Assembly: GCA_035652535.1 (NCBI GenBank)
Contig: DASRDP010000083.1
Span: 1-38,521, forward strand
Length of the DNA: 38,521 nt
Reading direction: 5' to 3'
Source: Chloroflexota bacterium
Lineage (GTDB): Bacteria; Chloroflexota; UBA6077; SHYK01
The position numbers were made by a program, and so were the translations under genes. Positions 31,976 through 36,092 of this stretch are shown one piece after another. Numbering within the stretch: position 1 is the first letter of the stretch; the number at the start of each line of letters is the position of its first letter. The notes beneath the pieces are model-generated. The model was given only the letters and a program-made list of their open reading frames with translations. It searched no databases and had not been told where the DNA came from.

Positions 31976-33274
31976 TTGAGAGAAGAACGCCCAGGGTTGC
32001 GGCGCGCCGCCATCGCCCTCCAGCACCGAGACTATCGCCTCTTCTACATCGCGCTCCTCGTGGCAGGGATCGGCGGCCAGATCCAGACCTTCGCCAACGT
32101 CCTGCAGATCTACCATTTGACCGGATCGGCCCTGTCGCTGGGGCTCACCGGGCTCGCCCGGGCCATCCCCATCATCGCCTTTTCTCTCATGGGCGGGATC
32201 ATCGCGGACCGGGTCGACCGCGTTCGCTTCAGCATGGTGGCGCAGGGCCTCGGGGGCAGCTTCAGCGTCATATTGGCGTTCCTGACCTGGACGGAGATGA
32301 TCGACGTCTGGCACATCTATCTCTTCACGTTCCTCGTGTCGTCGGTTCAGGCACTCAACACGCCCGCCCGGAGCGCCATCATCCCGAACCTGGTCCCGCG
32401 CCACCATCTCCTCAACGCGATAGCGCTCAACTCCACGGTCTGGCAGACATCCAACATCATGGGCCCGACCATCGCAGGCTTCGCCATCGCCGCCATCGGC
32501 TTCGTGCCAACCTATTTCATTGACGGGGTGGCTCAGATCGTGAGCATCAGCACACTCGCGATGATCCACGTCGGGCGGGTCACGGCGCGATCGAACCAGT
32601 CGCCGATTCGGGGCCTCGTGGAGGGGCTGAGCTTCGTCCGCCATAGGTCCATCATCATGGTGCTTCTGGCGGCCGATTGCGGCGAGACCTTCTTCGCGCG
32701 CTACCAGGCCCTTCTCCCCATCGTGGCGGCCAACGTCGGAGCGGGCGCAGCTGGCCTCGGAATCTTGAGCGCTGGACCGGGCATCGGCAGCCTCGTCGGG
32801 GCGACGCTCGTGATGTCCCTGGGAGACTTTCGTTACAAGGGCATCGTGGTGGTCGGCGCGATCCTCGCCTACTGCTGCGCCCTGGTGGTGCTGGCGCTTT
32901 CGCCGTGGCTCGCCCTAGCCGTGGTCGCCACGTTCCTCCTCGGGGTGTTCGATTCGCTCCAGGCAACGCCGCGGAACGGCGTGATCCAGCTCCTGACACC
33001 GGACAACCTGCGCGGACGGGTTTCCAGCTTCCAGAGCATGCTGACCAGCGGCGTGCCCCCGTTGGGCCAAGCCCAGATGGGCGCCGTTGTGTCGGTCGTC
33101 GGCGCGCCCGTCGCCATGATCATCGGCGCGTCGATCTGCGCGGCGCTGCAGCTCGGCCTCGTCACCACGCGCAGCGACCTCCGTGCCGCGGACCTTGGCG
33201 CGCGCGAGCCGGAGGTGCGACCCGTCCCCGTCGCGGCTCAAGTCCCCTCTCCCTCTGGGAGAGAGCGAGGGTGA
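31976..33274 (+). CDS. MFS exporter (MFS_3/EntS-like), C-terminus encoded by a repeat
   Basis: A 432-residue transporter with about 12 membrane spans. The MFS loop 2-3 motif reads GGIIADRVDRVRF (residues about 73-85), and QALNTPARSAIIPNLVP (helix 4-5) is typical of the MFS_3 group of exporters (EntS, macrolide efflux relatives). The TTG at 31976 is chosen because GAAGG precedes it and the first helix then begins with RLFYIALLVAGIGGQ, as in relatives. The last 10 residues (VPSPSGRERG) are translated from an intergenic-type hairpin repeat, so the natural tail has been replaced or extended. The substrate is unknown; the neighbouring oxidoreductase hints at a hydrophobic metabolite. Confidence 0.85.
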   Translation: MREERPGLRRAAIALQHRDYRLFYIALLVAGIGGQIQTFANVLQIYHLTGSALSLGLTGLARAIPIIAFSLMGGIIADRVDRVRFSMVAQGLGGSFSVILAFLTWTEMIDVWHIYLFTFLVSSVQALNTPARSAIIPNLVPRHHLLNAIALNSTVWQTSNIMGPTIAGFAIAAIGFVPTYFIDGVAQIVSISTLAMIHVGRVTARSNQSPIRGLVEGLSFVRHRSIIMVLLAADCGETFFARYQALLPIVAANVGAGAAGLGILSAGPGIGSLVGATLVMSLGDFRYKGIVVVGAILAYCCALVVLALSPWLALAVVATFLLGVFDSLQATPRNGVIQLLTPDNLRGRVSSFQSMLTSGVPPLGQAQMGAVVSVVGAPVAMIIGASICAALQLGLVTTRSDLRAADLGAREPEVRPVPVAAQVPSPSGRERG

Positions 33275-33280
33275 GGAGGG
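33244..33280. repeat. Palindromic repeat (CTCTCCC/GGGAGAG) overlapping the MFS stop
   Basis: CTCTCCC (33247-33253) and GGGAGAG (33257-33263) form a 7-bp hairpin with a 3-base loop inside a longer C-rich/G-rich imperfect palindrome (CCCCTCTCCC ... GAGGGTGAGG). It lies at a convergent gene junction and ends the MFS frame. It recalls the hairpins at 21635-21696. Confidence 0.5.
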
Positions 33281-33311
33281 TTCAGCCCCAGCCTCGAGAC
33301 CGGCCGCGTTG

Positions 33312-34679
33312 TCAGCCAGCCGCGCCGCCTGAACGTGCGAGCGGCGTCGGCGTCACCCGGCCCGCCGCCACCTGGGCCTCGATGGACATGACGGGCAGGT
33401 CCGTGAACGCCTCGAGGTAGGGCTCGACGGCGTTCTTCCACGGCTGTCCCTTCGGAAGAGCGAGCGTCGCACTCCGCACGCGATAGAGCGCGGGGTCGTC
33501 GACGCCCGGCGGCTTGACGCCGCCGTCCCGGAGCGCCTTGGCCGCGTTGATCAAGCGGCGGCGCACCTGGATCATCATCGCATCCGTCGTTCCCAGGTGC
33601 TCTCGGGTCCGATCGACGATGCCGCCCATACTCTCGAGCACCGCTTTGTCCTGCAAATTGACCGATGGCACGCCGGAGAATCGCCGGGTGCGCTGCGCTC
33701 CCCGGTCCATCAGGTAGTCGTTGCTGAGGTCCGCCTTCAGGCGCCACTGCTGCAGCGGATTGCTCGTCTCGGGAACGTACCCGCCCGGGTCACCCTCTGT
33801 GAATCGGTCGCGCTCCTCGGCGGTGAGGGGCCGCGTCGGGTTCCAGCGGACGTCCCACTTCATCACGTGCTCGTCGTCCAGCGGGATCCACCATTGCATC
33901 GGACACTCGGCCGGGCTGACCGGCGCGAACATGCCCCACATCGGCATGAGGAACTGCGTGATGCGCCAATAGATGATGCCAGGCTCTTCTTCCCGCCCCG
34001 CCGCGTACATCAAGCCGTAGTCGGTCGCCATGACCTCGAGGCGCGCGACCTTGTCATGGTAGAAGAGCCCGCGCCCGCCCGCTCCGCCCCCGGGAAACTG
34101 GGCGTCGCCATCCGCCGATAGCCGCGTGTGCAGAAACGAGAGGTGGCTGGAGTCCAGGTTCCCCTCCAGACTCTGGACCCAGTTGCAGTCCTGAAGGTTC
34201 TTCCGAATCGCCACGTGGCTCTCCGGCAGCATATTGAATTCGAGGTCTGGCAGAGCGGGCGGCTCGCTCCTGGGACCCATGTAGACCCAGATCAGCCCGC
34301 CGCGCTCGACGCACGGATACGCTCGATGTCGAATCTTGTCCTTGAAGTTGCTTTCGGGCGGCTCATTTGGCATGTCGACGCAGCGTCCCGCGACGTCGAA
34401 CTTCCACCCGTGGTACACGCATCGCAGGCCGGCCTCCTCGTTCCGTCCGAAGAACAGGGATGCGCCACGATGCGCGCAGTTCTCCGCCAGCATGCCGACC
34501 CCTCCGGAGCTGTCGCGGAACGCGACCAGCTTCTCCCCGAGGAGGAGCATGCGCCGCGGCGGGCCATCGGCTTCGATCTCCCTGCTGTAGAGCACGGGCA
34601 TCCAGTATTGGCGAAACAGATCCCCCATCGGCGTCCCCGGGCCAATTCGACAGAGCAGCTCGTTGTCCGCGGCGCTCAG
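33312..34679 (-). CDS. Rieske ring-hydroxylating oxygenase (phthalate dioxygenase type), non-AUG start
   Basis: The oxygenase subunit of a Rieske non-heme iron system. From the CTG at 34679 it has 455 residues. The [2Fe-2S] Rieske motif CAHRG (Cys68, His70) is followed by CVYHGW (Cys87, His90). The mononuclear iron site is NLDSSHLSFLH (D-x2-H-x4-H). Family relatives begin ML-S-A-x-x-N-x-L-L-x-R-x-G-P-G-T-P-M-G, and this frame has those residues up to the CTG, with ACG at the expected Met. AGGAGG lies 5 bp before the ACG and 8 bp before the CTG; the nearest in-frame ATG (34628) would cost 17 conserved residues. It dihydroxylates or demethylates an aromatic acid; no reductase gene is adjacent. 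It follows the transglycosylase-like gene by 39 bp. Confidence 0.88.
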   Translation of the reverse strand: MSAADNELLCRIGPGTPMGDLFRQYWMPVLYSREIEADGPPRRMLLLGEKLVAFRDSSGGVGMLAENCAHRGASLFFGRNEEAGLRCVYHGWKFDVAGRCVDMPNEPPESNFKDKIRHRAYPCVERGGLIWVYMGPRSEPPALPDLEFNMLPESHVAIRKNLQDCNWVQSLEGNLDSSHLSFLHTRLSADGDAQFPGGGAGGRGLFYHDKVARLEVMATDYGLMYAAGREEEPGIIYWRITQFLMPMWGMFAPVSPAECPMQWWIPLDDEHVMKWDVRWNPTRPLTAEERDRFTEGDPGGYVPETSNPLQQWRLKADLSNDYLMDRGAQRTRRFSGVPSVNLQDKAVLESMGGIVDRTREHLGTTDAMMIQVRRRLINAAKALRDGGVKPPGVDDPALYRVRSATLALPKGQPWKNAVEPYLEAFTDLPVMSIEAQVAAGRVTPTPLARSGGAAG

Positions 34680-34693
34680 CGTCGCATCCTCCT
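34680..34693 (-). promoter_or_regulatory. Strong ribosome site of the Rieske gene without AUG
   Basis: On the minus strand AGGAGG (34693-34688) is followed by ATGCGACG and then CTG (34679). The ATG directly after AGGAGG is out of frame and stops after three codons. The in-frame candidates are ACG (5-bp spacing) and CTG (8-bp spacing). Confidence 0.6.
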
Positions 34694-34718
34694 GTGACTA
34701 TGCCAATGGGCCAATCCG

Positions 34719-36092
34719 TCAGCAGGGGCGCGGGGGTGGTCTGGCGAGGACGCGCTCCACGTAGTCATTGCCGACATTTCCCCGCGGCCGCTGGTCGGGC
34801 TCGACGCGGACCCATTTCGCGATACCCGTTTCATACTCCTCGTCCACGTCGAGGTCCAGCAGTCCGGCGTCGGCATCCCACGCGAGCTGGTACTCGTGGA
34901 GCGGCAAGGAGAGATTATCGGAGCCGTAGGCTCCGTTGTACAGGCGAATCGCGTCGCGCTCGCGCTGCTGGAGATCGCAGTAGAAGTTTCCCGAAGTGAA
35001 GTCGGGGACGGTGACGCGGATCAGCCTGGGCAGGCCGTCGCTCTCGCGCGCATCGTTGTAGCTGTCGACGGCCGCGCGGAACTCACGGCTTCCGGCGACC
35101 GCGGCCGGCCAGCCGCGCGCAGTCGCGTAGGCATTCTGGAGCATGCGCCCACCGGCGTCGGCATTGCGCTTCCAGCTCCACACTTCGTCGTCGGTGGGCG
35201 AGGGATACGTGATTTGCATCATTCCAACGCCGTGCTCGCCGTCGCTGCTCCAGAGCGGATACCCGTTATCGGTGAACTGGTGCACGCTGCTCTCCGCCTG
35301 GGCGATGCGCCACAGCGTGTAGTAGCTCGTCGGAAACTGCGCGGCGAGGTAGCCCTGAACCGTCGACATCGGCGGATTTGTGCCGAGAATGGTCACGGTG
35401 GCGTCCGCCGCGTATTCGACGTCCGCGATGACGGTAACGGCCCGCATCGTCAACGTGCCGCCACGGACCGTGTCTCCGAAATCCGGCGTGAAGGCGCTGA
35501 GCCCCTCAGTCCGCTGGTCGGGCCATCGGTACGTGATGGGTGACGACGGCCCGTCGACGGGATCGTCGTCCGACGGCGTATAGGTGATCCGGATGGACCA
35601 CGTGAAGATCAGGTCGTCCACCGCCGAGTCAGGAATGCCCGTCATGGCGGGCGTCACGACGATCGTCGGCATCTCGGCCTGTTCTGAGAGGCGGTACACG
35701 TCGTGCTCGGCCGCGACCCGCAACGTAATCGGCTCGGGCTCGCTCGGCGAGGGCGTCGGCCCGCCTTCCTCGGGAGCGATGGCGGTCGGTGTCGCGGTTG
35801 GTGGCGGCGGCAAGATGGGAAAGGGCGGCGTCGGCAGGGGCGTGCCCACGGTGGCCGTGGCCGTGGCTGTCGGCGATTCCGTCGGCGTGCGCGTTTCGGT
35901 TCGCGTCGGCGTCGCGCGTGGCGTCGGCGTCGCGCTTGGAGTGCCCGGGGTCAGTCCCGCCTGCGCGTAGACGGGTCGGGCATGGGACACGTGCTCGCGT
36001 ATGTCGGGGGCACTCGTCTGGTCCGCCGCGGGAGGAGGAAGGGCGATGGCGACGAGCACGAGCAGCACCGCGGCGGAGGCGAGGTGGAGCAT
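34719..36092 (-). CDS. Secreted lytic-transglycosylase-like protein with Thr/Pro stalk
   Basis: A 457-residue exported protein: signal-like N-terminus (about 1-20), then a Thr/Pro-rich stalk (about 48-118). A beta-rich region (about 120-240) contains Ig-like strands. The C-terminal part looks like a soluble lytic transglycosylase: RIAQAESSVHQF with Glu267 as the candidate catalytic residue, and HGVGMMQIT (287-295), the counterpart of GLMQI. Downstream, NAYATARGWPAAV and IRLYNGAYG resemble the repeated helical parts of the lysozyme-like fold. The rest is unrecognised. It would cleave peptidoglycan during growth or release. The ATG at 36092 has no clear ribosome site. Confidence 0.72.
   Translation of the reverse strand: MLHLASAAVLLVLVAIALPPPAADQTSAPDIREHVSHARPVYAQAGLTPGTPSATPTPRATPTRTETRTPTESPTATATATVGTPLPTPPFPILPPPPTATPTAIAPEEGGPTPSPSEPEPITLRVAAEHDVYRLSEQAEMPTIVVTPAMTGIPDSAVDDLIFTWSIRITYTPSDDDPVDGPSSPITYRWPDQRTEGLSAFTPDFGDTVRGGTLTMRAVTVIADVEYAADATVTILGTNPPMSTVQGYLAAQFPTSYYTLWRIAQAESSVHQFTDNGYPLWSSDGEHGVGMMQITYPSPTDDEVWSWKRNADAGGRMLQNAYATARGWPAAVAGSREFRAAVDSYNDARESDGLPRLIRVTVPDFTSGNFYCDLQQRERDAIRLYNGAYGSDNLSLPLHEYQLAWDADAGLLDLDVDEEYETGIAKWVRVEPDQRPRGNVGNDYVERVLARPPPRPC

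Follow-up and report, generated by a model that had tools for sequence, protein, structure and literature searches.

A Rieske oxygenase gene of a Chloroflexota bacterium with ACG at the start-codon position of its family

The window, the whole stretch of 38,521 nucleotides analysed here (contig DASRDP010000083.1 of the Chloroflexota assembly GCA_035652535.1), carried on its minus strand a Rieske oxygenase gene with ACG at the conserved start position of its family; the protein was otherwise intact, and the genome had a normal-looking initiator tRNA gene. The probable explanation was a recent single-base ATG-to-ACG change in an ordinary, otherwise intact paralog, leaving at most weak initiation; we infer which way the base changed, that it did so recently, and that little translation follows. 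All observations are explained if one base of the start codon changed in an otherwise intact paralog, or if the draft assembly is in error there: this was most simply a one-letter change or a sequence error, not a new mode of starting translation. The features of the start region were as follows.

34719..36092, minus strand: upstream gene of 457 aa on the same strand, ending 36 bases before ACG
34698..34700, minus strand: in-frame TAG closing the frame upstream
34688..34693, minus strand: AGGAGG Shine-Dalgarno (SD) sequence
34676..34687, minus strand: out-of-frame mini frame ATG-CGA-CGC-TGA (Met-Arg-Arg)
34680..34682, minus strand: ACG, the family's start-codon position, at spacing 5 from AGGAGG, the commonest spacing among paralogs
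34677..34679, minus strand: CTG (codon 2), of the two codons the likelier place for residual initiation, at spacing 8 (within the paralog range) and favoured by the literature on CUG and IF3
34626..34628, minus strand: first ATG in frame, encoding Met19 in the GPGTPMG motif
33312..34682, minus strand: Rieske non-haem iron oxygenase (LigXa_C and Rieske domains), 456 codons from ACG, then TGA

The minus strand read TAG-TCA-CAG-GAG-GAT-GCG-ACG-CTG-AGC-GCC-GCG-GAC-AAC-GAG from the TAG at 34700-34698, and no ATG, GTG or TTG lay in frame between this TAG and ATG 34628. The Rieske frame from ACG comprised 456 codons without an internal stop, and its N-terminus TLSAADNELLCRIGPGTPMG aligned with the family's MLSxEDNELLTRVGPGTPMG. 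The first-pass annotation, made from the letters alone, was thereby borne out on four points: (i) the family N-terminus was encoded upstream of the first in-frame ATG (34628-34626), (ii) AGGAGG was followed by ACG-CTG at spacings of 5 (ACG) and 8 (CTG), (iii) relatives had Met-Leu where this gene had ACG-CTG, and (iv) the ATG beside the ribosome site was out of frame and stopped after three codons. The ATG of this mini frame (34687-34685) abutted AGGAGG, and its TGA (34678-34676) overlapped CTG. A fusion with the upstream gene (34719..36092, no Pfam match) was rejected: the stop of that gene and the TAG both lay in the Rieske frame, so a fusion would need readthrough of two stops. The predicted RNA structure at the start was nothing unusual (z = 1.38; 186 of 200 shuffles folded at least as well), and no exact copy of the 20-base start region was found in IMG/VR contigs.

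The start position was compared across the family in a tblastn survey, in which residue 1 was aligned across the fetched loci, ATG or GTG was accepted at up to 6 codons from aligned residue 1, and matches aligned only from beyond residue 9 were dropped, as were duplicates sharing the same 90 bases. ATG or GTG was found at 241 of 248 places overall: (i) 105/105 places (from 80 loci) in named genomes, with 91 ATG and 14 GTG; (ii) 29/29 places in related genomes, one further place being cut by a contig end; and (iii) 107/114 places in the same genome, with 88 ATG and 19 GTG. The seven exceptions, all from the same genome, were the window gene itself, five paralogs with longer and divergent N-termini (L141, L161, L184, L195, and L169), and L146 (G000:C30:5709-5894), a decayed family remnant with about 62 aligned residues, one stop and no start; this remnant indicates that Rieske family members do get lost in the source genome. 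Four more relatives chosen for higher local identity (genomes G002 and G040) all had ATG or GTG, and no other ACG start was found among the 248 surveyed places and these four. Judged by sequence comparison, the alignment of the start position is more than chance. As a control family, Bac_luciferase yielded 30 loci from 43 matches, 29 of which showed ATG, GTG or TTG near the N-terminus (the thirtieth was cut by a contig end); these starts were judged by eye, and such codons also occur by chance in a G+C-rich genome.

The closest local matches, both in G002, had 73% identity over residues 2-140 and 61% over residues 2-226, and the closer of them started canonically. No closer full-length ortholog was present among the genomes of the family (5) or of the order (16), the source genome being counted in each, and the nearest full-length relatives were 52-55% identical in the sets searched, which included no genome of the same genus; therefore, the ancestral ATG and the recency of its loss were deduced from the family rather than seen directly. 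Relatives had ATG or GTG in 241/248 and 4/4 places, but none was a close ortholog. The family comparison nevertheless points to the replacement of a presumed ancestral canonical start by a non-start codon.

This family was very large, with 138 matches to the window Rieske protein in one 4.45-Mb draft genome (the source genome, G000), and 170 and 131 first-look Rieske candidates were counted in two genomes of the same family (G001 and G002, respectively). Expansions of ring-hydroxylating dioxygenases are described for SAR202 group VII (PMC6946804). Family matches lay at contig ends of G000 (for example C43:2, C70:2, C61:4, C134:5, and C32:6), which suggests that similar paralogs break the assembly. 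In L312 (G002:C331), about 3 kb separated two closely similar Rieske paralogs, one starting with ATG and the other with GTG, the second of them cut by a contig end; this pair is a recent tandem duplication. Further paralog expansions were PF04909 amidohydrolases (71 matches in the genome; 2095-3189, 3543-4400, and 27192-28082 in the window) and Bac_luciferase (43 matches in the genome). The window also contained a strong match to virginiamycin B lyase family PF24684 (24356-26011; 335 bits) and, at 33225-33290 between convergent MFS and Rieske genes, a CCCTC/GAGGG-rich inverted sequence into which the C-terminus of the MFS frame (31976-33274) ran.

The protein encoded by the window gene showed no decay beyond residue 1. 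Pfam matches were PF00355 (62.3 bits, cut-off 20.3) and PF19301 (120.1 bits, cut-off 27), corresponding to the Rieske and LigXa_C domains, and the solved oxygenases 7fhr, 9ina and 7fjl (phthalate 4,5-dioxygenase or Rieske domain protein) matched over nearly the full length. In a 42-sequence alignment including the window protein, 38 columns were invariant, among them the Rieske and iron-ligand positions C69, H71, C88, H91, D177, H180 and H185, where the motifs CxH...CxxH and DxxHxxxxH supply the iron ligands; by its domains and ligand motifs, the product is a predicted Rieske ring-hydroxylating oxygenase of LigXa_C type. Conservation by column was judged from 215 relatives (those of the 241 with an ATG/GTG start and 390-500 residues). 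At least 90% of them agreed in 59 columns, of which the window protein deviated at one, residue 1, and the median relative also deviated at one; residue 1 of the relatives was entered as M, so column 1 was conserved by construction and its test is the start survey. Neither relaxed selection nor further decay was thus apparent, with 58/59 conserved columns kept and no internal stop; such absence of decay is also expected if the start loss was very recent, and the clean state of everything else would suit a gene still used through a weak start as well. The AlphaFold2 model had a mean pLDDT of 90.4 with an N-terminal helix in place at residues 4-11, and GC by codon position (0.67, 0.48, and 0.85) resembled that of neighbouring genes.

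The first-pass annotation had called the ribosome site perfect, which held for its letters (AGGAGG) but did not make it unusual. AGGAGG preceded 19 of 107 family starts in the source genome, and the predicted anti-SD pairing was -10.3 kcal/mol against a median of -9.9, ranking 39-45 among those 107 starts; by frequency and rank, this is a ribosome site of the usual ATG type rather than one strengthened for a weak codon. An unusually strong or extended SD like those of infC-type genes was not present, and a compensating extended SD was not supported, the pairing being of ordinary rank. The distance from AGGAGG/GGAGG to the start in same-genome paralogs peaked at 5 (17/63) and was 8 in 5/63 and 0 in 1/63, so both ACG (5) and CTG (8) were well placed.

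Use of non-AUG starts in the genome was gauged by counting, in 396 kb centred on Rieske loci rather than chosen at random, which codons lie 4-9 bases behind GGAGG. ATG (114 seen, 30.8 expected) and GTG (99 vs 65.2) were enriched and CTG slightly so (93 vs 80.2), while no enrichment was seen in these 396 kb for TTG (19 vs 18.4) or ACG (50 vs 66.8). Lineage-wide use of ACG starts was rejected on this count together with the lack of another ACG start among the family places. ARAGORN identified an initiator-type tRNA with anticodon CAT (L213), normal-looking and with the three G-C anticodon-stem pairs that are a hallmark of initiator tRNAs. A dedicated initiator tRNA with anticodon CGU was also rejected: the only CGT-anticodon tRNA found (L200) was annotated as threonine. 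The infC gene of the source genome had ATA (L310:1495-1497) behind AGGAGGAGG (site L310:1483-1497) with no canonical start in frame, a familiar exception of the gene for IF3, so a non-AUG start is possible in principle in this organism, yet this makes non-AUG initiation of the Rieske gene little more likely. Direct measurements for all codons were reportedly made by Hecht et al. in 2017. CUG gives 0.86% of AUG output in Escherichia coli (PMC11497404). At the first and second codon positions, no pairs other than Watson-Crick are tolerated by IF3 (PMC10158994), a rule less favourable to ACG than to AUA or AUU. Provided that the ACG is real, some initiation at CTG is plausible and at ACG less so. 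The literature search returned no paper linking a Rieske dioxygenase with a CTG start codon, and ACG starts, among the matches listed, were mostly from plant organelles, AAV and a plant virus.

The first-pass annotation had offered CTG or ACG initiation, a read error or a recent point mutation. The relatives and the intact gene favoured the change of a single base from ATG, while standing use of ACG was not supported, given no enrichment and no CGU initiator tRNA. Under the favoured course of events, the gene would have been an ordinary member of a very large paralogous family of Rieske oxygenases, with ATG as its start codon; a single T would then have changed to C in this codon, giving ACG too recently for other decay to follow. 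The intact SD would still place ribosomes at ACG-CTG, where the normal initiator tRNA and IF3 would permit rare starts, most of them at the neighbouring CTG and fewer at ACG; output of the enzyme would thus have dropped to a small fraction of what it was, or to nothing.

A possible but clearly less probable explanation is that the consensus or the assembly is wrong, or that a mixed population contributed a minority allele, most or all cells carrying ATG. The facts cited for a recent mutation also fit a consensus error, the assembly is a draft (168 contigs, 4.56% contamination), and of the 138 family matches at least 13 reach a contig end, so related copies disturb assembly; however, neither another copy nor another allele of the start region turned up elsewhere in the assembly (74% identity over about 120 bases was the next best DNA match), and the remainder of the gene showed no other sign of error.

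It is unlikely that the weak start is maintained and selected, with CTG or ACG throttling the enzyme as in infC, pcnB and ccpN. The same genome's infC combines a strong SD with the weak codon ATA behind AGGAGGAGG, extended SDs precede conserved AUU and AUA starts in Staphylococcus aureus (PMC13009471), and among mapped starts of Caulobacter 0.7% are CTG and 0.25% other near-cognates (PMC4117421). Moreover, the protein was fully conserved except at residue 1, and a CTG start would be tolerable, since five relatives (L045, L053, L068, L080, and L099) carry ATG at codon 2 and a protein begun at CTG would not be unprecedented in length. Against this, the codon was common to no relative, the SD was no stronger than in ATG-started paralogs, and behind GGAGG, ACG was not enriched and CTG was little enriched. 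The best-known cases are mostly regulators or initiation factors, whereas this is an enzyme with many paralogs. Quite improbable, too, is the form in which a near-cognate CUG (or ACG) start behind an ordinary AGGAGG throttles a selected metabolic enzyme, with the mini frame perhaps feeding CTG.

A start inside the gene at ATG 34628, which would yield a protein of 438 residues lacking the first 18, is very unlikely. This ATG is the first canonical in-frame start and has GGGGA five bases before it, but ATG-started relatives conserve Met19 as an interior residue of their GPGTPMG motif, and a start there would delete the confidently predicted helix 4-11 and four residues that at least 90% of relatives share (N7, G14, G16, and T17); with this helix and the conserved GPGT lost, a working enzyme would hardly result. 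Termination-reinitiation, in which the mini frame ATG-CGA-CGC-TGA hands terminating ribosomes to the overlapping CTG, is more doubtful still: TGA overlaps CTG as CTGA, resembling the ATGA of coupled genes, but the mini-frame ATG touches AGGAGG, a spacing seen in 1/63 paralog starts, and the arrangement rests on few bases and likely arose by chance. C-to-U mRNA editing that restores AUG is barely conceivable, nothing in the data suggesting it even though ACG starts are reported in plant organelle genomes. Editing accounts for those organellar starts; we know of no such mRNA editing in bacteria.

Compared with known systems, the window gene shared the same domains over nearly the full length with LigXa-like/phthalate 4,5-dioxygenase-like oxygenases (7fhr, 9ina, and 7fjl; PDB 7fhr aligned from residue 2 of the window protein), but LigXa-like oxygenases start with ATG or GTG, while this gene had ACG. 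With infC-type genes (E. coli infC and pcnB; S. aureus infC, cvfC1 and ccpN), it shared an SD, a near-cognate codon and the lack of a canonical in-frame start; unlike their conserved, regulatory AUU/AUA codons with strong SDs, its codon was mismatched at the second position, followed an SD of ordinary strength and was common to no relative, the other six exceptions not being comparable ACG starts. Start-codon-loss alleles and early pseudogenes likewise show a one-base start change with the rest intact, but here the functional loss would be only putative, with residual translation possible.

The finding is mostly a matter of annotation: gene callers that accept only ATG, GTG or TTG would begin the gene 18 codons late or call it intact. 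If translation from CUG or ACG is true, the gene would be a rare natural case of a CUG or second-position-mismatch start in a metabolic enzyme, and the cell's own paralogs with ATG or GTG starts, over 100 in number, would serve as the comparison.
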